This document shows positions 3,452 through 18,664 of a DNA stretch of 24,744 bases, piece after piece (position 1 is the stretch's first letter; each line of letters starts with the position of its first letter). The notes under the pieces were generated by a model. It was given only the letters and a program-made list of their open reading frames with translations. It did no database searches and had not been told where the DNA came from. The translations under genes were made by a program, and so were the position numbers. The DNA is from a virus. The DNA is taken from positions 1 to 24,744 of IMG/VR virus record IMGVR_UViG_3300009151_000356. One strand, written 5' to 3'.

Positions 3452-3465
3452 TTATGTAAACTTTG
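3433..3465 (+). promoter_or_regulatory. Bacteroidota-type promoter (-33 TTTG / -7 TA-N3-TTTG)
   Basis: TTTG at 3433-3436 is followed after 20 bases by TAAACTTTG at 3457-3465. The established Bacteroidota consensus is TTTG, 19-21 bases, then TAnnTTTG, so the only deviation is one extra base inside the -7 box. The ATG of the DUF3310 gene lies three bases after the final G (3469), so the transcript would be leaderless or nearly so. The -33 half lies inside the end of the preceding gene. Confidence 0.5.
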
Positions 3466-3468: not shown

Positions 3469-3669
3469 ATGAGTAATAATTTAATAAATCATCCAGAGCA
3501 TTACCAAAGCAATGGAATTGAAGTGATTGATATAATTGATTCTTTTAATTTAAATTTTAATCTTGGAAACTCGATTAAATATATTTTAAGAGCAGACAAA
3601 AAAGGAAATAAGAAGCAAGATTTAGAAAAAGCATTATGGTATATAAATCACGAATTACAAAAAACCTAG
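3469..3669 (+). CDS. DUF3310 family protein
   Basis: This 66-residue protein (from ATG 3469) matches the DUF3310 pattern: N-H-P-E-H-Y, G-I-E-V-I-D-I-I, then GNSIKYILRADKKG and DLEKALWYINHEL. The family is widespread in phages and is sometimes labelled a nucleotide-kinase-associated or SaV-like protein; its biochemical role is not settled. The frame is open upstream to a TTG at 3463, but ATG 3469 is preferred because TTG lies inside the promoter -7 box. It is the first gene after that promoter and is followed 16 bases later by the sigma-like factor. Confidence 0.8.
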   Translation: MSNNLINHPEHYQSNGIEVIDIIDSFNLNFNLGNSIKYILRADKKGNKKQDLEKALWYINHELQKT

Positions 3670-3685: not shown

Positions 3686-4165
3686 GTGAACGCAATAGAT
3701 CATCTTGTTAAGCGACATCGACATTGGATTAACATAGTTCGAAAGTTTGGCGAGTTGACCTACGCAGAGGACATAGTCCAAGAAGCATACATTAAGATTT
3801 TAGAAAAGAATAAAGAAATTAATGAGGCTTATTTTTATTACACACTACGAAGCCTAACTGCTGATTTATCAAGAGTAAAAATAATAAAGGTAGAGTTTAC
3901 AAAGGAAATTGAATATTTAATTTCAGATTACCTAACAGATGATTTAATCATCGAATCAACTAAACCTTATTTTGATTACATAGCAACTTGGGACTATTAC
4001 GATCAAATGCTATTTTCAGTTTATTTAAAAAAAGGAATATCAATGCGTAAAATGTCAAGAGAATCTGGCATATCATTTACATCAATTTATAACACAATTA
4101 GAAATTGTAAAACAAAATTAAAGTTATGGGCAAAAGAAAATCACAAGGACTTGGAGATTCAATAG
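3686..4165 (+). CDS. Phage sigma-70-like RNA polymerase sigma factor
   Basis: This 159-residue protein has the two-domain layout of a small (ECF-like) sigma factor. Region 2 is marked by Y-A-E-D-I-V-Q-E-A-Y-I-K-I near residues 26-38, the core-binding helix signature, followed by FYYTLRSLTADLSR. Region 4 lies at the C-terminus (YDQMLFSVYLKKGISMRKM, then SGISFTSIYNTIRNCKTKLK), a helix-turn-helix that would contact the upstream promoter element. It would redirect host RNA polymerase to phage promoters. It lies just before the terminase and downstream of a host-type promoter, the right place for a middle-gene switch to late transcription. The start is GTG at 3686; no nearby ATG keeps region 2. 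Its likely targets are the repeated TACGTTTAT elements listed below (inference). An ArpU-like late regulator is the alternative reading. Confidence 0.7.
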   Translation: MNAIDHLVKRHRHWINIVRKFGELTYAEDIVQEAYIKILEKNKEINEAYFYYTLRSLTADLSRVKIIKVEFTKEIEYLISDYLTDDLIIESTKPYFDYIATWDYYDQMLFSVYLKKGISMRKMSRESGISFTSIYNTIRNCKTKLKLWAKENHKDLEIQ

Positions 4166-4506
4166 AAAAGTTCACAGAAGCAATCGGTATAAAGGCTGGA
4201 GTTGACAAATTAGCAGAAGCAATTGGATTTGATTGTGGATGCGACAAAAGAAAGGAAGTGTTAAACAAACTATTTCCCTACAATAATCCACAATGTTTAT
4301 CAATTGAGGATTATCAATATTTAGATCAATTCTTTGGTCAAAATCATGAAAGCATAACACCAATGATACAAAATGATCTATCTAATATTTATTTTAATGT
4401 CTTTAATGTAAGATTACAACAGACATCATGTGATTCATGCTGGAGGGATACAATAGGTAAATTACGCAAGGTTTACATGGAGCATGAAACTAAAGAGGAA
4501 ATATAA
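4126..4506 (+). CDS. Cys-rich Bacteroidota phage protein, possible zinc binder
   Basis: The 126-residue protein starts within the last 40 bases of the sigma gene. It has two repeat-like N-terminal segments (EAIGIKAGVDKLAEAIG), then DCGCDKRKEVLNKLFPY, and a C-terminal SCDSCWRDTIGKLRKVY. The CGC and C-x-x-C pairs could bind one zinc. I recall proteins with the DCGC-x-RKE-x-LN-x-LFPY signature as regular neighbours of the terminase in Bacteroidota phages, without known function. Coupling to the sigma factor (overlap) and to the HAD gene (TAATG) indicates co-expression. A regulatory or packaging role is possible but unproven. Confidence 0.6.
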   Translation: MGKRKSQGLGDSIEKFTEAIGIKAGVDKLAEAIGFDCGCDKRKEVLNKLFPYNNPQCLSIEDYQYLDQFFGQNHESITPMIQNDLSNIYFNVFNVRLQQTSCDSCWRDTIGKLRKVYMEHETKEEI

Positions 4507-4937
4507 TGCCAGTAATAAAATGTAATAATGGAAAATGGAGAGTAGGAACAGGTGATTGTATTTATGATACCAAAGAGAAAGCAACAGAAGTTTATGTAGC
4601 AATAATCTCCAAAGGTGAGTATGCAGCTGAAGCAAATAAGGTTTCTTTTGACTTTGATGATACATTATCGACAAAGAGAGGGCAAACATTAGCCAAGAGA
4701 TTAATAACTCAAGGAAAGGATGTTTATATCATTACAAGAAGACAAGAATCAGCATCGGCAGAAGTTTATAAAGTTGCAGATGAATTAGGTATACCAAAAT
4801 CAAAGGTCTATTTTACTAATGGCAAAATGAAGTGGGAAACTATTAAAAGATTAGGGATTGATATTCATTATGATAATAATAAGGATGAAATTGATTTAAT
4901 CGATAAGAATACAAATGCAGTAGGAATTAAGTTTTAA
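4506..4937 (+). CDS. HAD-family phosphatase with N-terminal Cys/Trp module
   Basis: Residues 1-35 form a small module (IKCNNGKWRVGTGDCIYD, then KEKATEVYVAI) of a type seen at the ends of phage head and head-maturation proteins; its two Cys could pair or bind metal. Residues 45-143 are a haloacid dehalogenase domain. Motif I is F-D-F-D-D-T-L-S with nucleophile Asp49 and Asp51, motif II is I-I-T-R (Thr77), motif III is Lys107 in NGKMKW, and motif IV is Y-D-N-N-K-D (Asp123, Asp127). All catalytic positions are intact. Likely substrates are nucleotides or 5'/3' phosphate ends; the exact one cannot be read from sequence. It starts in a TAATG overlap and is followed by a 27-base gap before the small terminase. 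Confidence 0.7.
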   Translation: MPVIKCNNGKWRVGTGDCIYDTKEKATEVYVAIISKGEYAAEANKVSFDFDDTLSTKRGQTLAKRLITQGKDVYIITRRQESASAEVYKVADELGIPKSKVYFTNGKMKWETIKRLGIDIHYDNNKDEIDLIDKNTNAVGIKF

Positions 4938-4964
4938 AAAATTAATTGATTAATTTGTATTAAT

Positions 4965-5246
4965 ATGGATAAGAGAAAAAATAATGGTGGTCATAGTACA
5001 AAACCAATTCGAGATACTGATTTAAGATTAGTTGCTAAAACTGATTTGCAAGCAATACATGAAAGATTAGAACCATTTACTGAAGAAGCAATATCAAAGC
5101 ACGCACAAGCAATTAAAGAGGGAGAAAAATGGGCCATCGAATTGTTTTACAAATACAGATATGGTATGCCAAAGCAAGTCATAGATCAAAACAATACACA
5201 TACGATTAACGATTTCGACATAAAAGATATTGTGAAATTTGAGTGA
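4965..5246 (+). CDS. Terminase small subunit (putative)
   Basis: This short, basic N-terminal protein (KRKNNGGHSTKP) has a helical body with EAISKHAQAIKEGEKWAIEL and YRYGMPKQV. This resembles the DUF5681-like/short small-terminase proteins of Bacteroidota phages. It would bind the packaging site and regulate the large subunit. It overlaps the large terminase start by four bases (GTG at 5243), the usual TerS-TerL arrangement, which is the strongest support. An AT-rich stretch before it (TTAATTTG at 4950-4957) could be a weak -7 box, but no -33 TTTG is present. Confidence 0.65.
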   Translation: MDKRKNNGGHSTKPIRDTDLRLVAKTDLQAIHERLEPFTEEAISKHAQAIKEGEKWAIELFYKYRYGMPKQVIDQNNTHTINDFDIKDIVKFE

Positions 5247-6448
5247 TAAAATTAAATGATAAATATAAGCCATTATTTTATTCTGATTCAAGATACTATG
5301 TAATAACTGGTGGTCGTGGTTCTGGTAAATCGTATGCTTTAAACTCATTCCTTTTGCTTTTAACGTATGAAGTAGGTCATGTGATACTATTTACAAGATA
5401 CACACTTACATCGGCTCATGTGTCAATCATTCCAGAGTTCACGGACAAGATAGAAACGGTAGGATTGCAGGACCATTTCTATATTACAAAAGATGAGATT
5501 ATTAATACTCAAACTAATTCAAGGATAATATTTAAGGGAATTAAAACATCAAGTGGAACGCAAACGGCTAATCTAAAGTCATTGGCTGGAGTTACTACAT
5601 TTGTTCTTGATGAAGCCGAAGAATTAGTTGATGAAGATGTATTTGATAAGATTGATTTATCGGTTAGGCATAACTCAAAGCAAAATAGAGTTATTCTAAT
5701 TCTAAATCCTGTAACAAAAGAACATTTTATATACAAAAGATTTTTTGAGAATAAAGGAGTGGATGCTGGGTCTTCACTAATTAAAAAAGATACTACTTAC
5801 ATACACACAACCTATAAAGACAATCAAAAATATTTGTCTAATTCATTTATTTCTCAAATTGAAAGCCTACAAGAAAACAATCCTAAAAAATATCAGCATA
5901 CAATTTTAGGAGGATGGTTGGATAAGGCTGAAGGTGTTGTGTTTACCAATTGGAAGTTTGGTGAGTTTAATCCTAATCAATTACAAACATCTTATGGGAT
6001 GGACTTTGGATTTTCAATAGATCCAGATGCTTTAGCAGAAGTGGCCATTGACAAAGCAAGAAAGATTATTTACGTCAAAGAGATCATATATGAACGAGGA
6101 TTAAAAACACATATCCTTGCATCACTTATTAAAGAGAAATGCAACAATGGTTTAATCATTGCAGATTCAGCAGAACCAAGATTAATTGATGATTTAAAAT
6201 ATCAAGGCATAAACATACAACCAGTCAAGAAAGGGACTATTGAATCGGGAATAGTAAGAATGCAAGACTATCAAATTATTGTAGATCCACAATCACAAAA
6301 CATTGCCAAAGAATTTAATAACTACGTTTATTTAAATAAGGCATCTAAACTTTATCTTGATGCTTGGAATCATATAATAGATGCAATTAGATACAACATC
6401 ATATACCATTTAGATAATCCAAATCAAGGCAACTATCATATTTATTAA
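5243..6448 (+). CDS. terL: Terminase large subunit (packaging ATPase/nuclease)
   Basis: The 401-residue protein is a complete large terminase of the PBSX/Terminase_3-like type. The ATPase domain has Walker A GGRGSGKS (23-30), Walker B TTFVLDEAEE with Asp123-Glu124, and the coupling motif LILNP (152-156). The RNase H-like nuclease domain has three acidic positions: Asp254 in YGMDFGF, Asp308 in IIADSAEPR, and Asp380 (or Asp373) in DAWNHIIDAIRY. It powers DNA translocation into the prohead at the portal and cuts the concatemer. Translation starts at GTG 5243 overlapping the small subunit. Its TAA stop is the first three bases of the first late-promoter element. Confidence 0.95.
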   Translation: MIKLNDKYKPLFYSDSRYYVITGGRGSGKSYALNSFLLLLTYEVGHVILFTRYTLTSAHVSIIPEFTDKIETVGLQDHFYITKDEIINTQTNSRIIFKGIKTSSGTQTANLKSLAGVTTFVLDEAEELVDEDVFDKIDLSVRHNSKQNRVILILNPVTKEHFIYKRFFENKGVDAGSSLIKKDTTYIHTTYKDNQKYLSNSFISQIESLQENNPKKYQHTILGGWLDKAEGVVFTNWKFGEFNPNQLQTSYGMDFGFSIDPDALAEVAIDKARKIIYVKEIIYERGLKTHILASLIKEKCNNGLIIADSAEPRLIDDLKYQGINIQPVKKGTIESGIVRMQDYQIIVDPQSQNIAKEFNNYVYLNKASKLYLDAWNHIIDAIRYNIIYHLDNPNQGNYHIY

Positions 6449-6476
6449 GACAAAAACAAACAATTTACGTTTATAC
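6446..6476 (+). promoter_or_regulatory. Putative phage late promoter P1
   Basis: ACAAAA at 6450-6455, 10 bases, then TACGTTTATAC at 6466-6476, three bases, then the ATG of the tail chaperone at 6480. The segment 6446-6474 is identical at 27 of 29 positions to 13923-13951, and the 3' box recurs at 15588 and 18654. The box resembles the Bacteroidota -7 TAnnTTTG, but the upstream part is A-rich and has no TTTG. Confidence 0.65.
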
Positions 6477-6479
6477 ACT

Positions 6480-7154
6480 ATGAAGGTTAAAATATCAATT
6501 CCGACATCATTAAGTGAGATTAAATTAAGCCAATATCAGAAGTTTGTTAAGATAGCAAGCGAGAATGAGGAAGGTACATTTCTAAACCAAAAGATGGTTC
6601 AGATATTTTGCAATGTTGATTTATTTGTGGTGGCCAAGATGAAGCAGCAAGATTTAAATTATGCAGTTAATCAGATTGCTGAATTGTTTAAAAAGATACC
6701 AGAGTTAGTCACAATATTTAAATTAAATGGGACAGAGTTTGGATTTATTCCTAACCTAAACGATATGTCGAGTGGTGAGTACATGGACTTGGATGGTTAT
6801 ATTGTTGATTGGGAGGATAGTCATAAAAGTATGGCCATTCTTTACAGACCAATTAAACAAAAATTAGGTAATAAATATTTGATTGAGGACTATGAAGGAA
6901 GTGATAAGTATTCTGAATTAATGTTAGATGCTCCAATGGATGTAGTGTTGAGTAGTAAGGTTTTTTTTTGGACTTTAGGTCGAGAATTATTGAAAAATAC
7001 GATAGCCTTTTTGGAGGAGAGCAAACCAATGAGTTTAGTGAACAAGCACAATTTGGAAAAAGATGGGGTTGGTATTCTTCAATCTATGCCTTATCACAGG
7101 GAGATGTTAGACGATTTGATGAAATTACCAAACTTTCCATTAATCAATGCTTAA
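6480..7154 (+). CDS. Tail assembly chaperone (G-like short form)
   Basis: This is the zero-frame product of 224 residues, starting at the ATG three bases after promoter P1. It fits the tail assembly chaperone role: an alpha-helical acidic protein containing LSQYQKFVKIA, IFCNVDLFVV and LDGYIVDW segments typical of gpG-like proteins of Bacteroidota phages. A T9 run at 6961-6969 allows a -1 shift into the overlapping frame (next entries). Such chaperones bind the tape measure and recruit tail tube subunits, the long form being made at low frequency. Here the tape measure lies 7 kb downstream rather than next door. The zero-frame tail after residue 163 may be functional or simply unshifted sequence. 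Confidence 0.7.
   Translation: MKVKISIPTSLSEIKLSQYQKFVKIASENEEGTFLNQKMVQIFCNVDLFVVAKMKQQDLNYAVNQIAELFKKIPELVTIFKLNGTEFGFIPNLNDMSSGEYMDLDGYIVDWEDSHKSMAILYRPIKQKLGNKYLIEDYEGSDKYSELMLDAPMDVVLSSKVFFWTLGRELLKNTIAFLEESKPMSLVNKHNLEKDGVGILQSMPYHREMLDDLMKLPNFPLINA
6962..6968 (+). promoter_or_regulatory. -1 programmed frameshift site (T-TTT-TTT)
   Basis: Zero-frame codons are GTT TTT TTT TGG (6960-6971). The heptamer T-TTT-TTT is perfectly phased for simultaneous -1 slippage of two Phe tRNAs, inside a run of nine T. The -1 frame stays open to a TAA at 7217-7219 that overlaps the next gene. The position, near the 3' third of a tail chaperone gene, is canonical for G/GT. Confidence 0.75.
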
Positions 7155-7219
7155 TGTTTTTAAGTTTTGAGAAGCAAAAGAATGAATTAGAAATGAAAAT
7201 GATAAATAAAAATAGATAA
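6968..7219 (+). CDS. Tail assembly chaperone frameshift extension (T-like)
   Basis: This -1 frame adds 83 residues after Phe163 of the upstream frame, giving a 246-residue fusion. Its sequence W-G-W-Y-S-S-I-Y, then LSQGDVRRFDEITKLSINQC and LMFLSFEK, resembles the T-part of phage tail assembly chaperones: an aromatic helix, then a D-x-x-x-x-D-E-I/V-T-K-L motif, then a helix. It has no ATG of its own near its beginning (only TTG at 6968), so frameshifting is the natural way to express it. The stop overlaps the ATG of the next gene (TAATG), which fills the otherwise empty 7155-7218 and supports its being real. Confidence 0.75.
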   Translation: MDFRSRIIEKYDSLFGGEQTNEFSEQAQFGKRWGWYSSIYALSQGDVRRFDEITKLSINQCLMFLSFEKQKNELEMKMINKNR

Positions 7220-7674
7220 TGAACGGATTTTATTACGTTATACATAAATTAAGGGATTATATCAAAGAAACTGGATTTGTCAATTCAGTTAGTACTGGTG
7301 ACATCTTCGAAGTTGATTTAGTCAAACAAACTATTTATCCATTGGCCCATATCATTGTAAATAATGCTAGTCCAAAGGAATTTGTTACAAACTATAATAT
7401 TTCTATTTTATTTATGGACATCGTAGAAATAAGTAAAGATTTACCGGTTAATTTATTTGATAATAATACTAATATGCTTGACATATTAAATGATCAAATA
7501 ACTATTGCTCAAAGATTAGTAAGTAGTCTAAAACGTGGTGATTTATTTAGCAATTTAATTCAGATAGATGGTGATCCATTATGTGAACCTTTTACAGATA
7601 GATTTGAAAATAAGGTGGCAGGATGGACCTTAACATTTGATATTATTGTACCTAATGATATGACTATTTGCTAA
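7219..7674 (+). CDS. Putative tail completion/terminator protein
   Basis: The 151-residue protein has mixed alpha/beta character: an N-terminal helix (FYYVIHKLRDYIKE), then strands such as YPLAHIIVNN, YNISILFMDIVEI and GWTLTFDIIVPND. This pattern is typical of head-tail or tail-terminator proteins that replace the N-terminal arms of a ring oligomer. It is a conserved type in Bacteroidota phages, without a confirmed function. It couples by TAATG to the frameshift extension and to the next gene. I assign it by position and fold-like pattern only; it could also be a neck connector. Confidence 0.5.
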   Translation: MNGFYYVIHKLRDYIKETGFVNSVSTGDIFEVDLVKQTIYPLAHIIVNNASPKEFVTNYNISILFMDIVEISKDLPVNLFDNNTNMLDILNDQITIAQRLVSSLKRGDLFSNLIQIDGDPLCEPFTDRFENKVAGWTLTFDIIVPNDMTIC

Positions 7675-8210
7675 TGCAACTAAAAAACACAGAGGCTTTA
7701 ATAAAACGATTTAGGGACTATGTCATTCAGCAGTCAAGATCAAACCTATCAAAGAGCAGAAAGAATAACACAAAGGAGTTATATAATAGTATTAAAGGCG
7801 AAATATTAAGTGAAAATAATTATTCAATAGTTGGCTTTAGTATGGCTGATTATGGAATGTATCAAGATCAAGGAGTTAAGGGAAAGAGCAGTTCAGCCAA
7901 AGCGCCAAATAGTAGATTTAAATTTGGTTCAAAGTCTGGTCCCAAAGGTGGATTAACACAAGGAATCGAAAAATGGGTAAAACAAAAGGGAATACAATTT
8001 CGAGATAAAAAAAGTGGTAGATTTATTTCATATCAATCAACTGCATTTATTATTACTAGAAGTATTTATCAAACAGGGTTAAGACCAAGTTTATTTTTTA
8101 CTAAACCATTTGAAGCTGGAAAGAAGAAATATATTGATGGCGAGATAGGTCAGGCTTTTGCAATGGATGTTGATTATATTGTAGATTACGAATTAAAGAA
8201 AATAAAATGA
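7674..8210 (+). CDS. HK97 gp10-like head-tail/tail completion protein
   Basis: From ATG 7674 (TAATG overlap) the protein has 178 residues; the frame is open to a TTG at 7668, but the overlapping ATG is preferred. It is basic, with an N-terminal helix and RKNNTKELYNSIKGEIL. It then has MADYGMYQDQGVKG, the Y-x-x-x-x-x-x-G segment typical of gp10-like proteins in which a Tyr-Gly-rich loop follows the first helices. GGLTQGIEKWVKQKGI and SLFFTKPFEAG complete it. Proteins of this family join head and tail or cap the tail tube. The stop overlaps the next start as ATGA. Confidence 0.6.
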   Translation: MQLKNTEALIKRFRDYVIQQSRSNLSKSRKNNTKELYNSIKGEILSENNYSIVGFSMADYGMYQDQGVKGKSSSAKAPNSRFKFGSKSGPKGGLTQGIEKWVKQKGIQFRDKKSGRFISYQSTAFIITRSIYQTGLRPSLFFTKPFEAGKKKYIDGEIGQAFAMDVDYIVDYELKKIK

Positions 8211-9277
8211 TAATATACGCACGATCTCCATACCTTATAGAGATAAATGAAGCATCACAGGTAGGAAGTAAATTGGAAATATTCCTTTGGAATACCCCTA
8301 ACTCAATACCTGCAACTGCTACATATACTCTTTCTAAAAAGGTTGCATCTAATTCTCAAAGGTCCACAGTTTATAATATATCACCTTATATAAGAGAATA
8401 CATAGATAATATTGTGTCAAGTAATGGTACAGACAATCAATGGTGTAATATTTCCATAAAACGATACAAAGAAACATCAGTAGATTCATACACTTTAGTC
8501 GATACCAATACTTATGCAGCAGTTGATGGCTACACTAATTACAATGGTGGGTATAATCAAACTAATCCATTAAATAATTATTGTCTATTGGCTGATAATA
8601 GCAAAGAAATTCAATATAATTTAGGTAGTATTCCTTATGTAAATGTATTAATTAACAACGCTGTAGGCGATAAATTAGATGTTGAATACAAGGACACTAA
8701 TAATAACAATGTAATTATTACCTCTGTTTTTGGAACGGGAGTAAGTGCAGGTAAATACATGTATAAAGTACCATTAACCACATCAAGTGCTAACTATAAT
8801 AACGGCACAATTACAACTTTAAAATATTTTGTAGGTGGCACATTAACCTATTCATCTTTATTTAATGTAACTCCTATCTGCGAAAACAAATATACACCAG
8901 TTCAATGTTCATTTATTAATAGATTTGGTGGTTGGCAGTTTCTTACATTTTTTAAGGCTCAAACAAATCAATTAACGGTTTCAAGTACGATATATAACTT
9001 GTTACCAAGTGCATTTAACTATAATGCCTACAAAGGACAAACAAAATCATTTAACTTTAATGCAAGTCAAACCGTAACTTTAAACACAGGTTTTGTGCCA
9101 CAGAATTACTCTGATCTAATTCAAGATTTAATGTTAAGTGAAGTTGTATTATTAGATAACAAGCCTGTAACTCTAAAGACAAATCAAACCAATTTAAAGA
9201 CAACTATTCAAGACAAGAATATTAATTATACAATGGACTTTGAATATGCTTACAACTTATTAAATAATGTAATATGA
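8207..9277 (+). CDS. Tail-tip/baseplate-region structural protein
   Basis: The 356-residue protein is rich in Asn, Thr, Ser and Tyr with alternating beta-strand patterns, as expected of a virion surface or tail-tip protein. No enzymatic motif is visible. It starts in an ATGA overlap with the gp10-like gene and ends in an ATGA overlap with the large poly-Thr protein, so the three are translationally coupled and probably assembled together. I do not recognise a named family. A distal-tail or tail-tip role is inferred from position and composition. Confidence 0.55.
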   Translation: MIIYARSPYLIEINEASQVGSKLEIFLWNTPNSIPATATYTLSKKVASNSQRSTVYNISPYIREYIDNIVSSNGTDNQWCNISIKRYKETSVDSYTLVDTNTYAAVDGYTNYNGGYNQTNPLNNYCLLADNSKEIQYNLGSIPYVNVLINNAVGDKLDVEYKDTNNNNVIITSVFGTGVSAGKYMYKVPLTTSSANYNNGTITTLKYFVGGTLTYSSLFNVTPICENKYTPVQCSFINRFGGWQFLTFFKAQTNQLTVSSTIYNLLPSAFNYNAYKGQTKSFNFNASQTVTLNTGFVPQNYSDLIQDLMLSEVVLLDNKPVTLKTNQTNLKTTIQDKNINYTMDFEYAYNLLNNVI

Positions 9278-12200
9278 TTAATGTAAGCATTTTTATTTAT
9301 GGCGATGATGGCTTGGCAAAAAGACTTGAATTATTTGAGGATGAAAACATATCAATCAATAGTTCAATCCAAAACATTAATGATATATCAAAAGTCTTTA
9401 CCGATTTTAGTCAATCGTTTACGGTGCCTGCCACGAAGAACAACAATATAATATTTAAACATTGGTACGAAAATAGTTTAGATAGTGGATTTAATGCCAC
9501 CAAAAGAAAAGATGCTTATATTGAAATTGACACATTGCCATTCAGAAAAGGAAAGATTCAATTAGAAAAGGCAAGTTATAAAAAAGGTAATATTGATAAT
9601 TACACTTTGACTTTTTTTGGTTCCTTAATATCATTAAAAGATAAATTTAATAATAGGTTTTTAAGGGACTTTGATTTCTCTGCATATAATTTTACATATT
9701 CAGGTACAGTAGTTAAAAACAGAGTTACAAGTGGTTTAGCTAAAGATGTTAAATTTCCTTTAATAACTTCATATAATATATGGCAATATAATACAAATGG
9801 TACAAGTCAAAACAATTATGACATTCAAAAAAATGCTACTCCAATATCTTATTTAGATTTATTCCCAGCAATGAGAATAAGTAAAATACTTGATGCTATT
9901 CGTATACAACTTGGAATTACATTAAGTGGTTCATTTTTAAGTAATGAAAAGTTTACTAATGCTTTTCTTTGGTTAAAAAATACAGATACTTTTGCTCAAA
10001 AAGGATCAGATAATAAAATATTTTTTCAATCTAAATCAAGTACTACTGGTACATCAAGTATTTTTGATTTAACAACTAATTCTTTAAATTTTACGCAACC
10101 AATTTTGCCAGCTTATGTAAGTAAAAATTACATTGATATAGATTTTACAAGTGGAAGTGGTATTGCATTTAATTTTTCAGTATATAAAAATGGAGTCAAA
10201 TTAACTGAACAATCAGCCACTACATCACCATCTGGATTTCCGATTAGATTAGATATTTCTTTTGTTGATTCAGGCGCTTATACTTTTTTTATATCTTCAA
10301 CAACTGCAATAACATTTACATCTGTTTATACCTTTGAAATTAATAGTGGATCAGGTGCAAGCATTGATGTAGTTGCTACACAAAGTGTATCACAAACAAT
10401 AACAACAACTTTAAATATTGGCGATTATATGCCAGAACTTAAAGCAGAAGATTTCTTTAGTGGTTTACTAAAAATGTTTAATCTTACTTGTTATTCTTAC
10501 GATGGGATTACATATTACATTGAGCAATTAGAGGACTGGTATTTAGCAGGACAAACCTATGATATATCTAAATATTGCCAAACAGATGAAATAGATTTAG
10601 AGAGGGTCAAACCTTATAAAACTATTAATTTTAAATATCAAGAATCTGAAAATATTATAGCAACAAGATTTTTATCTCAATCTGATATACCTTATGGAAA
10701 TTTAAAATATCAAGTTGATAATGATGGAGAAGAATATTCAATAGAATTACCTTTTGAGAATTTACCATTTTTTAAATTTTCAAATACTAATCTTCAAGTA
10801 GGAGGAGTTATAAAAGCTGATTTAAAAGCATACATTCCAAAGCCAGTTATACTTTATGATTATGGTGTAATTCAAACTTTATCAGGTGGTCAGTATTTTC
10901 ATTTTTTTGATGGTACATCAAGTTCACCTGTTACAACTTATAATTTATTTGGTCAAGATACATTAGTATCGTCTGCCGTTAATACTATAAATTGGGGTGC
11001 AGAACAATCAAGTTTTACAGATAAAATTGAGCCAAACTCATTATTCCAAAATTACTATTCAGCATATTTAACAAATACATTTAATCAAAAAGCAAGGCTA
11101 ATGAAGATTAAAGCAATTTTACCAATATTTCTATTATCTAAACTTGCATTAAATGATAAGATAGTTATTAGGGATAAGAGATACATTATTAATTCTTATC
11201 AAACAGAATTAACCACGGGAGAAACAAGTTTTGAATTAATGTCAGATTTGAGAAATATTACTTTAGGAACTACGACAACAACTACAACTGTTGCACCTAC
11301 AAGTACGACAACAACAACAAGTACAACAACAACAAGTACGACAACTACAACTACAACTGCAACTCCAAGATTTACATATTATAGATGGGATGTAAGTACT
11401 TTTGATTGTTCTCAATCTAATCCAATTCCTTTTTGGTCATATACATCTTATGCAAATGGATTTAAGATTATAAATGGTGATGGAATTACAAGATATTTAA
11501 CTAGTGCAAGCCATAGTAATTTTACAAATCAAATTACAAGTATTGCAAATTCAAGTTGTGCAACAACGACTACAACCACAACTACATGCCCACCATATGG
11601 AACTTACTTATATGAGTATTGTGGAGGCGCACCTGATTATAATAAAATAGGTGTATTTGCTGATGGTTCTTGTGGTTCTTATGCTTCTGTCATTGCTTAC
11701 AATGATCCTGCTTGTGGTTACACAACAACTACTACCACTACAACTACTACATTAGCACCAAGATATACATTCTATCGTAATGATGTTAATACTGGAGATT
11801 GCTCAACTTACAATCCAATTCCTTTTTGGTCATATACAAATCATGCTTCAGGATTTTATTACTTAAATGGTGATGGCATTTTAAGATATTTGCAAAGAAC
11901 TACACATTCTAATTTTACTAATCAAATTAATAGTATTGCAGGTGGCACATGTACTCCAACTACTACGACAACCACAACTTGTCAACCTTATGGAACTTAT
12001 TTGTATGAATATTGCGATAATGTAAACCATAATAAGATTGGTGTTTTTGCAGATGGATCTTGTGGATCATATACATCAGTTATTGCTTATAACGATCCAG
12101 CTTGCGGATATGTAGCACCTACGACAACAACGACAACAACCAGAGCGCCTACAACTACCACTACTACAACTGCTGGTCCTAATTGTCAACAATATACTTT

Positions 12201-12375
12201 GAACAATAATGATCCTAATTATTCTGATTATTATGATTTCCAATCATGTAATGGTTCATGGAATTATGGTGTAGAATTACAAGCAAATGGAAATATAACT
12301 ATCTGTGCAAGAGTTGGGACGGTAACTGCTGGAGGTGCTATAAGTGTAAGTTTACCACAAGGTTCATGTACTTAA
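9274..12375 (+). CDS. Large tail protein with poly-Thr linkers and duplicated Cys-rich modules
   Basis: This 1033-residue protein has two halves. Residues 1 to ~660 are a structural tail domain: FTDFSQSFTVPATKNNNIIF near the start, beta-rich throughout, and a final KIKAILPIF/LNDKIVIRDKRYIIN/SYQTELTTGETSFELM portion. This looks like a baseplate-hub or tail-tip protein of Bacteroidota phages. Residues 666-697 are 28/32 Ser/Thr. Then come module A (698-763), T8, module B (772-816), T10-LAP, A' (829-895), T7, B' (903-948), T7-RAP-T7 and a last Cys-containing domain (968-1033). Each module carries paired Cys. All four Thr codons are mixed, so the protein, not the DNA, is what is repeated. The modules are likely exposed receptor-binding or decoration units on flexible, possibly glycosylated stalks. 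Two glycosyltransferase-like genes follow directly. Confidence 0.75.
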   Translation: MINVSIFIYGDDGLAKRLELFEDENISINSSIQNINDISKVFTDFSQSFTVPATKNNNIIFKHWYENSLDSGFNATKRKDAYIEIDTLPFRKGKIQLEKASYKKGNIDNYTLTFFGSLISLKDKFNNRFLRDFDFSAYNFTYSGTVVKNRVTSGLAKDVKFPLITSYNIWQYNTNGTSQNNYDIQKNATPISYLDLFPAMRISKILDAIRIQLGITLSGSFLSNEKFTNAFLWLKNTDTFAQKGSDNKIFFQSKSSTTGTSSIFDLTTNSLNFTQPILPAYVSKNYIDIDFTSGSGIAFNFSVYKNGVKLTEQSATTSPSGFPIRLDISFVDSGAYTFFISSTTAITFTSVYTFEINSGSGASIDVVATQSVSQTITTTLNIGDYMPELKAEDFFSGLLKMFNLTCYSYDGITYYIEQLEDWYLAGQTYDISKYCQTDEIDLERVKPYKTINFKYQESENIIATRFLSQSDIPYGNLKYQVDNDGEEYSIELPFENLPFFKFSNTNLQVGGVIKADLKAYIPKPVILYDYGVIQTLSGGQYFHFFDGTSSSPVTTYNLFGQDTLVSSAVNTINWGAEQSSFTDKIEPNSLFQNYYSAYLTNTFNQKARLMKIKAILPIFLLSKLALNDKIVIRDKRYIINSYQTELTTGETSFELMSDLRNITLGTTTTTTTVAPTSTTTTTSTTTTSTTTTTTTATPRFTYYRWDVSTFDCSQSNPIPFWSYTSYANGFKIINGDGITRYLTSASHSNFTNQITSIANSSCATTTTTTTTCPPYGTYLYEYCGGAPDYNKIGVFADGSCGSYASVIAYNDPACGYTTTTTTTTTTLAPRYTFYRNDVNTGDCSTYNPIPFWSYTNHASGFYYLNGDGILRYLQRTTHSNFTNQINSIAGGTCTPTTTTTTTCQPYGTYLYEYCDNVNHNKIGVFADGSCGSYTSVIAYNDPACGYVAPTTTTTTTRAPTTTTTTTAGPNCQQYTLNNNDPNYSDYYDFQSCNGSWNYGVELQANGNITICARVGTVTAGGAISVSLPQGSCT
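11269..11364 (+). repeat. Thr/Ser-rich linker 1 (mucin-like)
   Basis: This encodes residues 666-697 of the tail protein: runs of seven, five, four and seven Thr separated by Ser or VAP. Codons ACA, ACG and ACT are interspersed rather than a pure triplet repeat, which argues for selection on the amino acids. Confidence 0.9.
11365..12150 (+). repeat. Tandem duplication of a 131-residue A-linker-B-linker unit
   Basis: Copy 1 is 11365-11757 and copy 2 is 11758-12150, each 393 bases. Protein similarity is high (shared NPIPFWSYT, HSNFTNQI, YGTYLYEYC, KIGVFADGSCGSY, SVIAYNDPACGY). The DNA differs at many third positions, with a few identical patches such as the one encoding NPIPFWSYT. This is an old in-frame duplication kept by protein-level selection. 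Thr linkers (8, 10, 7 residues) separate the modules. Confidence 0.85.
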
Positions 12376-12376
12376 T

Positions 12377-13300: not shown

Positions 13301-13920
13301 AAATATTAGTTGGATTATTTGGTATTCACTACAAAGAAGATTTAAACCATTGGATGGGGTGGAGGCCAACGGTAGATTATAGGAAATCTATTGAGAATAA
13401 TAAAGAATTTATATTTAATCATTTTGATTGCACATTTTTTGCATCAACTTATAATTCGCCAATACTTGAAAATTTAATTACTGATTATAATATTGAAAGA
13501 ATTGTAACTACTGATTTAGTAAATATTCCTAATGATTTAGATGCTAATTGGAGATCTCGAAATAATACATTTAAGAATTTATTAAAATTAATTTTAGATT
13601 CTGATTATCAGAAGTTTGATTACATTTTATTAACAAGGTATGATTTAATATTCATGCAAAACATCACAAATTTTACATTTGATTCTAATAGTTTTAATAT
13701 TTCTTCAAGGTCAAGATGTGGCGATGTATCTGATTTATGCGATGATAATTTTTATGTCATTCCATCATCGATGTTATTAGATTTTTACAATCAGATTAAA
13801 GATTTAGATGTTAATATGTGGGCGCATGATTGGTTTAAATATTTAAAACCAATTAACTATTTAATTGATGATTCATTCTATTCGCACGAAAATCCATTCT
13901 ATTATATCAATAGAAATTAA
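13297..13920 (+). CDS. Second glycosyltransferase-like protein
   Basis: This 207-residue protein couples by ATGA to the first transferase. It begins MKILVGLFGIHY like a nucleotide-binding strand. It carries FDYILLTRYDLIF (107-119), where R-Y-D-L occupies the place of the DxD motif in GT-A transferases of capsule/LPS and viral types. RSRCGDVSDLCDDNFYVIPS and MWAHDWFKYL follow. A short GT-A fold with Asp116 as metal ligand is the best reading, but the family is uncertain. With the first transferase it could build a disaccharide: one enzyme linking sugar to protein, the other extending it. No signal peptide is present. Its stop is two bases before the second late-promoter element. Confidence 0.5.
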   Translation: MKILVGLFGIHYKEDLNHWMGWRPTVDYRKSIENNKEFIFNHFDCTFFASTYNSPILENLITDYNIERIVTTDLVNIPNDLDANWRSRNNTFKNLLKLILDSDYQKFDYILLTRYDLIFMQNITNFTFDSNSFNISSRSRCGDVSDLCDDNFYVIPSSMLLDFYNQIKDLDVNMWAHDWFKYLKPINYLIDDSFYSHENPFYYINRN

Positions 13921-13922
13921 AG

Positions 13923-13951
13923 TAAGACAAAAACAAACAAAATACGTTTAT
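13923..13951 (+). promoter_or_regulatory. Putative phage late promoter P2
   Basis: ACAAAA at 13927-13932, 10 bases, TACGTTTAT at 13943-13951. It is identical to P1 at 27 of 29 positions including TAAGACAAAAACAAACAA. Unlike the other three copies, the last A of the box begins an ATG (13950) and the ...AC end is replaced by GA. Confidence 0.65.
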
Positions 13952-14102
13952 GATAAAGAATATATTAGACTTATTAATGATTAATAATCATTATGGAGTT
14001 CATGAATCAATAGAGATTGCAAAGGGTAAAAATGAAATTCCAAAAACTTGGAAAAAAGGATTTAGACAAATTAATAGATTAATAAAATGGCAACAGAAAT
14101 AG
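13950..14102 (+). CDS. Small ORF between promoter P2 and tape measure
   Basis: This 50-residue frame was found by reading between the second transferase and the tape measure. From ATG 13950 it reads MIKNILDLLMINNHYGVHES and ends ...INRLIKWQQK before TAG 14100-14102, overlapping the tape measure start by 16 bases. If transcription begins just after the P2 box, ATG 13950 would be upstream of or at the transcript end, and the functional start would be ATG 13977 (41 residues). It is basic and helical, with no recognised family. It may be a real small tail-assembly factor or a leader ORF coupling translation to the tape measure. Confidence 0.4.
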   Translation: MIKNILDLLMINNHYGVHESIEIAKGKNEIPKTWKKGFRQINRLIKWQQK

Positions 14103-15562
14103 AAGTTGATTTAAATATATCCAATAATATTGGTGGATCTATTAAGCAATTAAAAGAGTTAAAGAAAGAATTAAAAAACACAGAAGTTGGGACAGAGGCA
14201 TTTAAAAATCTATATAATCAAATTGATGATTTAGAAGACAAAATTAAATCTGCTAAAAATGTATCATCTGATTGGGTAGATTCATTAGCAAGTGCTGGTG
14301 GCCCAATTGGTGCTTTAGGAACAGCATTAAATAATGCAAAGGTTGCTACACAATCATTTGGGGGTGCATTAAAAGCAACAGGTATTGGATTACTTGTTTC
14401 TTTAGTAGGTGGATTAGTTGCTGCATTTAATGACAATGAAAAAGCAGTCAAAAAATTACAACCATTATTTATAGGATTAGAAAAAATATTTAATGGAGTT
14501 TTTGTAGCCATTGAACCATTATTTAATACGTTAGTTGATTTAGGCATTAGTGCTTTGCCTATGGTATCAAAAGCAATGCAAGTTGTTTATGGATCAGTAA
14601 CTGCAGTCATTCAATCATTAGGAAATCTTGGAAGTGCGGTAGTTAAATTTATTAAAGGAGATTTTAGTGGTGCTTGGAAAGATGCAAAAGCATCTGTAAC
14701 AGATTTTGGAACAAATTATAATAAATCAGTTAAGAATTTTGAGGATGGAGCAAAGCAACAAACTAAAACTGAAAAAGAAGAATTAGAAAAACGAAGATTA
14801 GCAAGATTAAAAGCAGAAGAAGATTCAAAAAAAGAAAAAGAAAAGAAAGAAAAAATTCGATTAGAAGAATTAGAAAAAATAGAAGCAAGATTATCATCTA
14901 TGCGTACCTATGAAGCTAATATTGCAGCCGTAGAAATTGAAGCAGAAGAAGATAGAAAATTAAGAGCAGCAGAAAAACAAAAACAAATTGATTTTGAAAA
15001 CAACCATGAATTAAATTCTTATGCCACATATATGTCCAATATTACTGCTGTTGATAAAGAACAAGCAGAAGAAAGGAAAAAAATAGCAAATATTGAGGCA
15101 AGAGCAAAAAATGCATCATTACAATTATATGCTGATGGATTAAATCAAATAGCAAATGCAATTGGTGTACAAACAGATGAAGGTAAAGCGGCAGCAATTG
15201 CTTCGGTTACTATATCAACTTATTTAGCTGCACAAAATGCCTATGCTGGTCAAATGGAAATACCTACACCTGATGCACCATTTAGGGCAGCATTAGCTGC
15301 AGGTTTAGCAATTACTGCTGGTTTAGCTAATGTTGCAGCAATTGTAAACACAAAAACCCCTTTGGGTGGTGGTGGTGATGGATCTGGTGTACCTCAACCA
15401 CAAGCACCAAGATTTAATGTTGTTGGGGCAAGTGGAGTTAATCAATTATCACAAGTTATTGGCCAAAATCAAGAGCCAGTAAAGGCTTATGTTGTTGCAT
15501 CTGAAGTAAGTTCACAACAATCATTAGACAGAAATAAGATAATGTCTGCAAGTTTAGGATAA
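14087..15562 (+). CDS. Tail tape measure protein
   Basis: The 491-residue protein has the standard tape-measure composition: a helical N-terminus (KQLKELKKELKNTE), Ala/Gly-rich hydrophobic segments around residues 85-110 (GIGLLVSLVGGLVAAF) and 130-200, and a long charged coiled coil (about 225-300, rich in KEEE/RRLARLKAEE). A second Ala-rich hydrophobic zone lies near 365-415, with a GGGGDGSG hinge and a conserved-looking C-terminus (VVASEVSSQQSLDRNKI). By the common rule of about 0.15 nm per residue it would set a tail of roughly 70-75 nm, a short siphovirus tail. Its chaperone gene is far upstream (6480), and the tail tube appears to lie after the capsid gene, an unusual split. Confidence 0.8.
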   Translation: MATEIEVDLNISNNIGGSIKQLKELKKELKNTEVGTEAFKNLYNQIDDLEDKIKSAKNVSSDWVDSLASAGGPIGALGTALNNAKVATQSFGGALKATGIGLLVSLVGGLVAAFNDNEKAVKKLQPLFIGLEKIFNGVFVAIEPLFNTLVDLGISALPMVSKAMQVVYGSVTAVIQSLGNLGSAVVKFIKGDFSGAWKDAKASVTDFGTNYNKSVKNFEDGAKQQTKTEKEELEKRRLARLKAEEDSKKEKEKKEKIRLEELEKIEARLSSMRTYEANIAAVEIEAEEDRKLRAAEKQKQIDFENNHELNSYATYMSNITAVDKEQAEERKKIANIEARAKNASLQLYADGLNQIANAIGVQTDEGKAAAIASVTISTYLAAQNAYAGQMEIPTPDAPFRAALAAGLAITAGLANVAAIVNTKTPLGGGGDGSGVPQPQAPRFNVVGASGVNQLSQVIGQNQEPVKAYVVASEVSSQQSLDRNKIMSASLG

Positions 15563-15572
15563 TGAAAATGTA

Positions 15573-15598
15573 ACAAAATATAAAATATACGTTTATAC
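15573..15598 (+). promoter_or_regulatory. Putative phage late promoter P3
   Basis: ACAAAA at 15573-15578, nine bases, TACGTTTATAC at 15588-15598, then three bases and the protease ATG at 15602. The 11-base 3' box and its distance to the ATG are exactly as in P1 and P4; the upstream half is more divergent but keeps ACAAAA. Confidence 0.65.
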
Positions 15599-15601
15599 GT
15601 T

Positions 15602-16180
15602 ATGAAAATAATCGAATTAATTATTTCTAATGATGAAGATGGAATTGAAGCCATAAGTTTGGTGGATAGACCAGCTATTGAAAGCAACTTTATTACATTG
15701 GCTAAAGAATACGAAATGAATTTGGCCGAAGTAGATACAGAAAAGAAAATATTAATGGGACCAGCTTTAATCCCTAACAAAATGATTTTCCGTAAAGATG
15801 GAGAATCTAAATACCAAGTTTATTTTAGTGAAAGTACGGTTGAGCAAGCAAGTCAAATGTATTTAAAGAATGGAAATCAATTAAATGCTACCTTACAACA
15901 TAAGACAAAAATAAATGGTATGTCATTGGTTGAATCTTGGCTAATTACTGATCCTGCTATGGACAAATCTAAATCATACGGATTTAATTTACCTAAAGGA
16001 ACATGGATGGTATCAATGAAAGCAGACAATGAAGAAATTTGGGCTAAAGCAAAGAGTGGTGAGATTAAAGGGTTTTCTATTGAGGGTTATTTTGCTGATA
16101 AATTAAGTTTAGAGTTATTGCCTGATATTAAAGATGAAGAATTAGTAAGTCAAATTTTAAACATATTAGAAAATGAGTAG
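15602..16180 (+). CDS. XkdF-like prohead maturation protease
   Basis: The 192-residue protein matches the XkdF-type putative phage serine protease. The N-terminus GIEAISLVDRPAIESNFI is the hallmark opening of this family. His100 in LQHK and Ser112 in VESWLITDP are the likely catalytic pair of the assemblin-type fold, and KGFSIEGYF (156-164) is the conserved closing strand. It would cut the scaffold and capsid precursor during head maturation. The scaffold and capsid genes lie directly downstream, in the expected order. It is preceded by late promoter P3 with only three bases between the box and the ATG, and overlaps the next gene by eight bases. Confidence 0.8.
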   Translation: MKIIELIISNDEDGIEAISLVDRPAIESNFITLAKEYEMNLAEVDTEKKILMGPALIPNKMIFRKDGESKYQVYFSESTVEQASQMYLKNGNQLNATLQHKTKINGMSLVESWLITDPAMDKSKSYGFNLPKGTWMVSMKADNEEIWAKAKSGEIKGFSIEGYFADKLSLELLPDIKDEELVSQILNILENE

Positions 16181-16361
16181 AGATAAAACATCAAGTCCAA
16201 AGGGTGGGAATAGAGGATGTTTATGTGCAGATGGCACATACAATAGTGATTGTTGTGATGGTGAATTACAATCACAAGGAGTAGGTTCATTAGTTCAAAG
16301 TGTTACTACAACTATAACTAATACAAATGCTCCAAGAACAATTGTAAATGTAAGTAATTAA
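16173..16361 (+). CDS. Small Cys-rich head-region protein
   Basis: This 62-residue protein starts inside the protease gene. Its core is GGNRGCLCADGTYNSDCCDG, four Cys within 12 residues (C-x-C...CC), followed by QGVGSL and a Thr-rich tail (SVTTTITNTNAPRTIVNV). I recall the R-G-C-L-C-x-D-x-T-Y-S...C-C-D-G pattern from small proteins in Bacteroidota phage structural clusters; the function is unknown. It may be a disulfide- or zinc-stabilised capsid decoration or head-completion peptide. Placement between protease and scaffold in a tight head operon supports a virion role. Confidence 0.6.
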   Translation: MSRDKTSSPKGGNRGCLCADGTYNSDCCDGELQSQGVGSLVQSVTTTITNTNAPRTIVNVSN

Positions 16362-16373
16362 ATAAATAAATAT

Positions 16374-17018
16374 ATGGAATACAAAAGCACAAAAAATCGA
16401 GTAAAAGCAGCATTAGGCTTTCAGATTAATTTGGCGCAGATGACTTTAGAAGATGGTGTTACTATCGTTGAAGCTGAAGAATTTGCACCTGATTATTCAG
16501 TTGGAATTGTTACTGCTGATGGTGTTGTACCTATGCCTGTTGGCGAGTACACAATGCAAGATGGTATGGTATTGGTTGTTGAAACAGAAGGTATTATTCA
16601 GTCAATTGCTGAAGAATCACAAGAAGAACAAATGCCTGAAATGGGACATCCAAATGCAGAGGCAACTGAAGTACAACCTGTAGCAAAACCAAAACAAGCA
16701 GGTAAACCACAAGCTGCTGCTAATCCACAACCGGTGCAAGCAAAGCGAGTAGTAGAATCAGTTAGTAAAGAAACTTTCTTTGCAGAAATTGAAAAATTGA
16801 GAACTGAATTGTCATTACAGATTAATGAGGTTAAAGCAGAAAATGAGTCTTTAAAATTAGAGAAAGAAGCATTAGAAATAAAATTAAATTCTCAAGAAGA
16901 AGGCGCTGAACCAATTGTTCATAATCCTGAATCAGCAGAAAAAATACAAGGATTTACTTATGGTCAAAATAGACCTGAAACAATCCAAGATAAAGTTTTT
17001 GAAAAAATGTTCAACTAA
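16374..17018 (+). CDS. Capsid scaffolding protein (putative)
   Basis: The 214-residue protein has a beta-rich N-terminal domain (residues ~25-80: LEDGVTIVEAEEF, GDGVVPMPVGEYT-like, GMVLVVETEGIIQSI). A Pro/Ala/Gln-rich flexible linker follows (~90-125), then a coiled coil (~128-175: EIEKLRTELSLQINEVKAEN...), and a C-terminal peptide NRPETIQDKVFEKMF. A coiled-coil protein directly between the maturation protease and the major capsid gene is the canonical scaffold position. The C-terminal amphipathic helix would contact the capsid protein. It is highly acidic overall. Confidence 0.65.
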   Translation: MEYKSTKNRVKAALGFQINLAQMTLEDGVTIVEAEEFAPDYSVGIVTADGVVPMPVGEYTMQDGMVLVVETEGIIQSIAEESQEEQMPEMGHPNAEATEVQPVAKPKQAGKPQAAANPQPVQAKRVVESVSKETFFAEIEKLRTELSLQINEVKAENESLKLEKEALEIKLNSQEEGAEPIVHNPESAEKIQGFTYGQNRPETIQDKVFEKMFN

Positions 17019-17035
17019 ATTAATTTAAATAAAAA

Positions 17036-17989
17036 ATGGCAACTACTACAAGTATTACCACAACCTATGCAGGTGAATACGCAAATAAAATTATTGCGGC
17101 TTCATTGCTATCTTCACCTACCATTGATCGTGGAGGAATTGAAGTAAAACCTAATGTACGTTACAAGCAAGTTATCAAAAGAGTTGCTACTGATGCAATT
17201 TTAAAAGATGCTACTTGTGATTTCGATTCTACATCGACAATTACTTTAACTGAAAAGATTTTAGCACCAGAAGAATTTCAAGTTAACTTACAATTGTGTA
17301 AGAAAGATTATTATTCTGATTGGTTAACAGTAGAGCAAGGTTATTCTGCTTTTAAAACTTTACCTAAATCTTTTGCTGACTTTTTAGTTGCTCACGTTGC
17401 TGCTAAAGTTGCTGCAAAAAATGAAACTAATATTTGGGAAGGTGTAACTGCAAACGCTGGAGAATTTAATGGTATTACAACATTATTAACTACAGATGCT
17501 GCTTTGCCTACATCTCAAGAAGTTGCAGGTACTACTGTTACATCTTCTAACGTAATTGCTGAATTAGGTAAAATTGCTGATGCAATACCTGCTTCATTAT
17601 ACACTAAAGATGATTTATATATTTATGTATCTCAATCTATTGCACGTTCTTATATCCGTGCTTTGGGTGGATTTGGTGCATCTGGTTTGGGTGCTGCAGG
17701 TACTAACTCTATGGGAACACAATGGTACAATAATGGATCTCTTTCTTTTGATGGTATCAAGATTTTTGTAGCTGATGGTTTGGCATCTACTAAAGCAATT
17801 GCAACTACAAAATCTAACTTATATTTTGGTACAGGTTTAATTTCTGATTTAACTCAAGTAAAAGTTATAGACATGAGCGATATTGATGGTTCTCAAAATG
17901 CCAGAATAATTATGAGAATGACTGCAGGTGTACAATACGGTTTTGCTTCTGATATTGTAACTTACGGAATCACAAATTCTGCAAATTAA
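17036..17989 (+). CDS. Major capsid protein
   Basis: The 317-residue protein begins MATTTSITTTYAGEYANKII and has PNVRYKQVIKRV, EEFQVNLQLCKKDYYSDW, a Gly/Ala-rich central part (GGFGASGLGAAG) and a C-terminal VIDMSDIDGSQNARIIMRM strand. It fits HK97-fold capsid proteins of Bacteroidota phages in length, position after protease and scaffold, and composition. Codon use differs from neighbours: four of seven Arg codons are CGT, while most other genes use AGA almost only, which is consistent with very high expression. A strong hairpin terminator follows eight bases after the stop. It has no long N-terminal delta domain, in line with a separate scaffold. Confidence 0.8.
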   Translation: MATTTSITTTYAGEYANKIIAASLLSSPTIDRGGIEVKPNVRYKQVIKRVATDAILKDATCDFDSTSTITLTEKILAPEEFQVNLQLCKKDYYSDWLTVEQGYSAFKTLPKSFADFLVAHVAAKVAAKNETNIWEGVTANAGEFNGITTLLTTDAALPTSQEVAGTTVTSSNVIAELGKIADAIPASLYTKDDLYIYVSQSIARSYIRALGGFGASGLGAAGTNSMGTQWYNNGSLSFDGIKIFVADGLASTKAIATTKSNLYFGTGLISDLTQVKVIDMSDIDGSQNARIIMRMTAGVQYGFASDIVTYGITNSAN

Positions 17990-17996
17990 TTTAAAT

Positions 17997-18027
17997 AGCA
18001 CCTCATTAATTTGGGGTGCTTATTTTT
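17997..18027 (+). terminator. Rho-independent terminator after the capsid gene
   Basis: The stem AGCACCTC (17997-18004) pairs with GGGGTGCT (18013-18020): eight pairs including one G-U, with an eight-base loop ATTAATTT. It is followed by TATTTTT. It lies between the capsid and the tail tube gene, so downstream transcription depends on read-through or an unseen promoter. Confidence 0.8.
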
Positions 18028-18047
18028 AACTTTTAAATTCAATCAAT

Positions 18048-18575
18048 ATGGCTTGCGATATTTCTTTGGGAAGATTAGAACCCTGTAAAACAGCAGTTGG
18101 TGGATTAAAAGCAGTTTATTTTATGACTGAAGGAGATGCAACTGGTGTTACTTATGATGTAACAAATACAGATGCAATTACTGCGATTGCAGGAACTCCA
18201 ATTGGATTCAAATATGATTTGAAAGGATCAAGTTCATTTGAGCAAACCATTAATTCTTCAAGAGAAAATGGAACTACTTTTTTCACCCAAACTTTAAATT
18301 TAAGTTTAAAGCAATTAACTATTAAGGACCATAAGCAAATTAAATTACTTGCATATGGTAGACCTCAAGCAATAGTTGAAGATAACAATGGAAACTTTTT
18401 CTATTGTGGTTTAAAGAACGGACTTGATGTTACAGGGGGTACAATTGTTACAGGTGCAGCAATGGGAGATATGTCAGGCTATACCTTAACAATTGTAGGA
18501 ATGGAACCAGTACCTGCAAACTTTATTACAACTACTTTAACTGCTGCTGGCGTAACGGTTACATCTGGAGTTTAA
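18048..18575 (+). CDS. Putative major tail tube protein
   Basis: The 175-residue protein starts MACDISLGRLEPCKTAVGG. It contains GFKYDLKGSSSFEQTINSSR, a long conserved-looking strand TTFFTQTLNLSLKQLTIKD, and a final MGDMSGYTLTIVGMEP segment. I recall MACDI-x-x-GRLEPCK proteins as regular members of Bacteroidota phage structural clusters. The beta-strand content and size fit a tail tube protein, and position after the capsid supports a major virion protein. It is bracketed by two terminators, which would set its dosage on its own short transcript. A capsid decoration protein is the main alternative. Confidence 0.5.
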   Translation: MACDISLGRLEPCKTAVGGLKAVYFMTEGDATGVTYDVTNTDAITAIAGTPIGFKYDLKGSSSFEQTINSSRENGTTFFTQTLNLSLKQLTIKDHKQIKLLAYGRPQAIVEDNNGNFFYCGLKNGLDVTGGTIVTGAAMGDMSGYTLTIVGMEPVPANFITTTLTAAGVTVTSGV

Positions 18576-18602
18576 TAAATTTTGTTTGTTTGGGTTGAAA
18601 TT

Positions 18603-18625
18603 AGGGAGCAGATGCTCCCTTTTTT
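18603..18625 (+). terminator. Rho-independent terminator after the tail tube gene
   Basis: A perfect seven-pair stem AGGGAGC (18603-18609) / GCTCCCT (18614-18620) with a four-base loop AGAT is followed by a run of T to 18625. The GC-rich stem stands out in this AT-rich DNA. Late promoter P4 begins 14 bases downstream. Confidence 0.9.
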
Positions 18626-18638
18626 CGTTAAAAAGAAA

Positions 18639-18664
18639 ACAAAAAGACTTTTTTACGTTTATAC
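18639..18664 (+). promoter_or_regulatory. Putative phage late promoter P4
   Basis: ACAAAA at 18639-18644, nine bases, TACGTTTATAC at 18654-18664, three bases, ATG at 18668. It lies directly after a terminator, the place where a fresh promoter is needed, which supports promoter function for the whole motif family. Confidence 0.7.

Follow-up and report, generated by a model that had tools for sequence, protein, structure and literature searches.

The window, i.e., the whole stretch of DNA analyzed here, is a virus record of 24,744 bases. It carries a putative sigma factor gene and four copies of a short element, each located ahead of structural genes. The features on which the argument rests are the following:

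3434..3465, + strand: host-type promoter-like element TTTG-N20-TA-N3-TTTG (from the sequence), preceding the DUF3310-sigma gene pair
3469..3669, + strand: DUF3310 gene, directly 5' of the sigma gene (Pfam PF11753, E 3e-19)
3686..4165, + strand: predicted sigma gene (GTG start, 159 aa), of ECF size, with regions 2 and 4 and without region 3
4126..4506, + strand: gene of a 126-aa Cys-rich helical protein, overlapping the end of the sigma gene; partner or bystander
6450..6474, + strand: site 1, putative late promoter before tail gene 6480
13927..13951, + strand: site 2, lineage-specific copy before gene 13950 and the tape measure gene
15573..15596, + strand: site 3, putative late promoter before head protease gene 15602
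17997..18020, + strand: terminator-like hairpin directly 3' of the capsid gene, within the site 3 unit
18603..18620, + strand: terminator-like hairpin (GC hairpin and T run) just 5' of site 4
18639..18662, + strand: site 4, putative late promoter before gene 18668 and the portal gene

The sigma gene, its neighbors and the four sites

The original prediction described 3686–4165 as a sigma-70-like gene. The open reading frame is real, and taken singly its product gives a weak PHROG signal and a Sigma70_r2 score of 15.3 bits, below the Pfam cut-off of 24 bits; it is the family profile and the predicted fold that back the assignment. The PHROG family phrog_1740 (“RNA polymerase sigma factor”) matches 31 of 36 family members (best E 4e-9), and the profile of the sigma family retrieves ECF sigma factors from the PDB (1h3l, SigL; E 0.002). 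The protein contains the AEDIVQE motif of region 2. Its AlphaFold model (mean pLDDT 82.6) consists of two helical domains and a low-confidence linker, with neither region 3 nor region 1.1; the flexible connection between the domains accounts for its low pTM. Leading Foldseek matches are sigma factors, mostly of the ECF type. Region 4, the helix-turn-helix that binds the −35 element, aligns with known structures: residues 86–154 of the model superimpose on sigmaE region 4 bound to −35 DNA (2h27; Z 9.1, rmsd 2.5, 69 residues) and also on 3hug (Z 9.2). Based on the family profile, the PHROG matches, the predicted fold and the region 4 alignment, the gene most likely encodes a sigma factor of ECF size with two domains. 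The single top Foldseek match of the model was chain C of 9n9q, an RNA-guided transcription complex, at 20% identity. Neither an anti-sigma gene nor one for host shutoff was recognized.

A host-like TTTG-N20-TA-N3-TTTG element had been proposed to precede the DUF3310 and sigma genes. It is present in the window, and TTTG..TAAACTTTG-like elements are kept before DUF3310 in many clades (the window, G001, G004, G009–G012, G015, G019, G033–G036 and others). This arrangement is consistent with synthesis of the sigma factor by the host polymerase at the outset. A scan for ordinary sigma-70 promoters yielded no excess over shuffled sequences. Downstream, all family contigs tested have an orthologue of the 4126 gene at, or soon 3' of, the sigma gene. 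The encoded protein has a conserved CGC...C...CxxC pattern; a fold search with it returned no match, and it has no recognizable DNA-binding fold. It is a candidate partner of the sigma factor. The interval from the sigma gene to site 1 contains the terminase genes. As no phage-type site occurs there or before terS/terL in the window, these genes are probably co-transcribed with the sigma unit. Upstream of these genes, a DNA methyltransferase gene (1447–2060) contains a run of 11 G (about 1667–1677), at which its reading frame is split in two. Relatives have 11 or 13 G in the same place, which resembles slipped-strand phase variation, and an assembly error is possible.

The motif ACAAAA-N9/10-TACGTTTAT has four exact matches on the + strand and none elsewhere in the window, and it did not occur in any of 100 dinucleotide shuffles. 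Each copy is situated within a genuine gap between open reading frames. The four predicted positions (6450, 13927, 15573, and 18639) are thus exact, the two copies said to agree at 27/29 bases are sites 1 and 2, and the terminator announced before one copy is the hairpin 5' of site 4. TACGTTTAT without the upstream box has two further, intragenic copies at 1216 and 6323, so it is the second box that confers site specificity. At sites 1, 3, and 4 the motif ends exactly 5 nt 5' of the ATG of genes 6480, 15602, and 18668, respectively; the site 2 motif contains the annotated ATG (13950) of the 50-aa ORF 13950. Two observations concern the tail genes. Gene 6480 contains a T9 run (6961–6969) and an ORF in the −1 frame (6968–7219) that overlaps it, which suggests programmed −1 frameshifting in a pair of tail assembly chaperones (6480–7219), and the tail protein encoded at 9274–12375 has poly-threonine linkers and repeated modules (TTTTTT..FTYYRWDV and CPPYGTYLYEYC repeats).

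Conservation of the sites in related phages

Sigma relatives with at least 56% identity are encoded at 41 viral loci. Close relatives that reach past terL have site 1, and longer ones also have sites 2, 3, and 4 in the same places; the near-genome-size contigs G002 and G003 contain no further full copies of the motif. Eight relatives share ACAAAA and CGTTTATAC without change and differ in the spacer and in the three bases before the ATG. The two letters preceding CGTTTAT differ too and can be TA, AA, TG, or AG (AACG, TGCG, and AGCG were seen). Of the element as originally described, the ACAAAA box and the CGTTTATAC core are therefore conserved, but the leading TA of the −10 box is not, which argues for an ECF-like promoter and against a variant of the host TAnnTTTG.

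The element was also followed into more distant members of the family. In contig G001 (55% sigma identity) an extra gene separates terL from the tail gene, and the element stays with the tail gene in the form ACAAAAACTATAAAATTAAGTTTATACAATATG; sites 3 and 4 are kept with altered −10 boxes at the same distances to the ATG. A search with the sigma profile recovered at least 576 relative loci. In 25 further contigs, most orthologous gene starts carry lineage-specific forms of the element (TTTGTTTATAC, AACGTTTATAT, ATCGTTTATA, ACGGTTTATAG, ACGTTATATAA, AAGTTATATAA, AGTTAAATAG). Sites 1, 3, and 4 persist in evolving form where the sigma factors are only 35–63% identical. In some divergent clades GTTATATA or GTTAAATA replaces the CGTT-type −10 box, and the boxes are hard to recognize in the most divergent members, G029 and G030. 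De novo repeat finding missed the diverged motif of one contig (L042), which was found by alignment to the orthologous gene start. Orthologues of gene 18668 were defined as the ORF ending at the portal start, the automatic orthologue search having drifted to a wrong gene. Across the family sharing the sigma factor, sites 1, 3, and 4 precede the same three genes (6480, 15602, and the gene before the portal). Absence of the motif from relatives with the same sigma gene, the outcome that would speak against the original prediction, was looked for, and the motif stands before the orthologous genes in these relatives and in part also in the cultured phage described below.

Site 2 has a narrower distribution and occurs in exactly the eight contigs that contain gene 12377. 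This gene, with or without gene 13297, is inserted before gene 13950, between the tail and the tape-measure units, in this clade only; gene 13297 is found in some clade members only, and the insertion is always followed by site 2. In a simple reading, a promoter copied behind the inserted cassette would restore expression of the tape-measure unit. The putative ancestral regulon is thus one of three sites, and site 2 is a lineage-specific addition. Because site 2 extends over the ATG of gene 13950, translation of this ORF would require either upstream transcripts or a later start. The start of gene 13950 is conserved in G001, which suggests that the ATG is used despite a transcript from site 2 being unable to include it.

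The cultured relative, Nonlabens phage P12024L (NC_018272), was found through its capsid protein, which is related to that of the window (29%). Its gp35, annotated as “Sigma-70 region 2”, is the top match of the sigma profile in its own genome (E 4e-12). A tblastn search with the window sigma against the INPHARED phages gave no match at E ≤ 1, gp35 being too diverged. Seven AACAAA..CGTTAATA-like sites precede gp01, gp05, gp08, gp37, gp42, gp45, and gp46; they were picked with the motif itself and are not an independent count. A regular expression allowing spacers of up to 13 nt missed most of them (spacer 14), and a separate scan found them. Like the window, P12024L thus combines a sigma homologue, detectable at the profile level, with two-box sites before late genes. 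It differs in its −10 box (CGTTAATA), in having mostly one base more between the boxes, and in the site that precedes gp37 and the terminase genes behind it, the window having no such site. The P12024L homologue of the 4126 protein is itself encoded behind such a site.

In a survey of 84,980 bacterial and archaeal genomes the sigma family had two matches (L170 and L169), one in a Bacteroidetes MAG and one on a contig labeled Candidatus Thioglobus. Because there are only these two, the phage family seems to be mostly lytic. Its host is probably a member of the Bacteroidota, judging from P12024L and the promoter type.

Several counts bear on whether the sites could have arisen by chance. A strict two-box pattern is found before 33 of 54 site genes vs. 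5 of 628 other genes, and two of these five, both from the 59-kb contig G017, appear to be additional genuine sites. The same pattern precedes 32 of 46 distinct gene-6480 starts, compared to 0.64% of all ATGs, and a GTTW box precedes 43 of the 46, compared to 9.4%. A scan of 2.9 million viral contigs with the motif only gave, among the matches listed, 89 instances at 80 loci; 84 of the 89 immediately precede an orthologue of one of the three site genes, and 79 of the 80 loci encode proteins of the window's phage family. Where at least 4 kb before gene 6480 were available, the sigma gene was within the fetched DNA at 10 of 11 motif loci; at the eleventh (IMGVR_UViG_3300009164_000250, L073) it is located further upstream on the contig. 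Of 27 contigs, 25 keep the terminator-like hairpin 5' of site 4, compared to 17 of 1080 control positions with such a hairpin, and the portal unit therefore requires a promoter of its own.

The −10 boxes of sites 1, 3, and 4 are more alike within than between genomes (8.06 vs. 7.14 matches of 9, sd 0.15; 11 lineages), and none of 2000 permutations reached the within-genome value (p = 1/2001, 0.0005). These sites are not homologous to each other, and their co-variation within a genome therefore points to one trans-acting reader; drift along the tree does not predict it. Conservation by mere shared ancestry was rejected, since the spacers drift while the boxes hold and non-homologous sites co-vary.

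A phage ECF sigma factor as putative reader of the sites

All four window sites and those of P12024L contain (A/G)AC-N15-17-CGTT. This is the geometry of ECF promoters, with an AAC-type −35 and a CGT-type −10 box about 16 nt apart, and a CGT −10 box is also present in the ECF promoters of Flavobacterium psychrophilum (PMC9723704). We propose, with a probability of nearly nine in ten, that the phage ECF sigma factor directs the host RNA polymerase to the two-box promoters of the virion genes late in infection. The factor would be made from the host-type promoter before the DUF3310-sigma pair and would displace the host sigma on the host RNA polymerase. The reprogrammed polymerase would then recognize (A/G)AC-AAAA followed by CGTTTATA, with N15-17 between AC and CGTT, and switch on late the units directly behind the sites, i.e., the tail, head-protease/capsid, and portal units and, in the lineage of the window, the tape-measure unit. 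The original prediction had all late units switched on in this way; the sites do lie before the structural units, but the terminase genes, upstream of site 1, fall outside this scheme.

Transcription from ECF promoters usually starts some 6–9 nt after the CGT box. The distance from GTTW to the ATG is the same 7 nt at 30 of 33 sites, and nearly leaderless late mRNAs are therefore predicted; at most sites transcripts would start within about 0–3 nt of the ATG. For comparison, 5.5% of the mRNAs mapped in F. psychrophilum are leaderless (PMC9723704). It is conceivable, at somewhat less than even odds, that an ECF promoter locked to the start codon delivers the virion genes as leaderless mRNAs, and that sigma factors and promoters have co-diverged into several specificities. 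If so, one element would set both the transcription and the translation start in a phylum without Shine-Dalgarno sequences, and the co-diverged lineages would form a natural series for decoding the recognition of ECF −10 boxes.

An element held so close to the start codon might instead act in the RNA, as a translation-enhancing leader of highly expressed virion genes, given that the hosts have no Shine-Dalgarno sequences. Translation in Bacteroidota favors A-rich upstream sequence, and the sequence upstream is indeed A-rich; the short fixed distance to the ATG at most sites (7 nt after GTTW at 30 of 33) would also suit a leader. However, the two boxes keep a constrained spacing while the spacer sequence drifts freely, and in G022, G023, and G028 the ATG distance shifts while the box spacing holds. 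Moreover, the site 2 motif contains the ATG, the element is missing before nearly all other genes, and 25 of 27 phages have a terminator right before site 4, so that a new promoter is needed there. We regard such a leader as very unlikely.

The sites could also be promoters read by a host sigma factor, either the primary or a host ECF sigma, with the phage sigma serving another purpose. TACGTTTA does match the host TAnnTTTG at 7 of 8 positions, and CGT occurs in flavobacterial ECF promoters as well (PMC9723704), but the leading TA is not conserved and there is no TTTG at −33. Furthermore, the −10 variants agree within genomes and differ between sigma lineages, and every motif locus with enough flanking sequence is on a contig that carries the sigma gene, which makes reading by a host factor highly improbable. 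Another phage late activator that binds the sites and recruits the host holoenzyme is barely credible. The 4126 protein would be an obvious choice, as its orthologues adjoin the sigma gene in every family member, but the sites have the layout of ECF sigma sites, this protein is without a recognizable DNA-binding fold, and its P12024L homologue is itself behind such a site. Recognition by the phage ECF sigma factor is thus the reading we prefer.

Relation to known phage sigma factors

Late gene control in Bacteroidota phages outside the crAss-like phages is hardly described, and no paper on the sigma factor or late promoters of this phage family was found in the literature searched, which comprised few subscription journals. 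The sites provide a concrete putative regulon for a large uncultured phage family, one representative of which, Nonlabens phage P12024L/S, is in culture. Sequences of sigma factors together with their promoters, available from many lineages, could reveal on what basis an ECF sigma factor selects its −10 box, and the promoters might furnish an orthogonal system for Bacteroidota genetics.

Among characterized phages, T4 (with gp55) and SPO1 (with gp28) turn on later classes of genes by means of proteins of the sigma family. The late promoters read by T4 gp55 consist of TATAAATA only and need the sliding clamp; by description, gp55 is set apart from the window sigma by its domain makeup. In the Firmicute prophage PBSX, the late operon is controlled by Xpf, the positive control factor. 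As predicted for the window sigma, Xpf is small and phage-linked and belongs to the group IV sigma factors, having no regions other than 2 and 4 (PMC10141391). The ECF promoters of F. psychrophilum (SM6) serve host stress and T9SS regulons, whereas the phage sites would control virion genes and add the AACAAA upstream box.

The closest functional parallel in the literature is the sigma factor of phages phiEco32 and 7-11, which is first made from host promoters and works with the host polymerase at promoters before structural genes (PMC4331800); the phiEco32-type factor (gp36) has been classed as ECF (PMC7881722). Both systems have sites before structural units, their sigma dependence in the window being our prediction. 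The phiEco32 and 7-11 promoters, however, are a single extended −10-like motif (TAATGTATA / TGATGT..TATA), whereas those of the window have two boxes with ECF spacing. Sequence homology between gp36 and the window sigma was not detected by tblastn against INPHARED at E ≤ 1, and common sigma ancestry is possible. Late switching by a phage sigma factor is therefore a known strategy, and the window family is probably separate from phiEco32 gp36 and PBSX Xpf, appearing distinct in its sequence, its predicted two-box promoter, and its probable host group.
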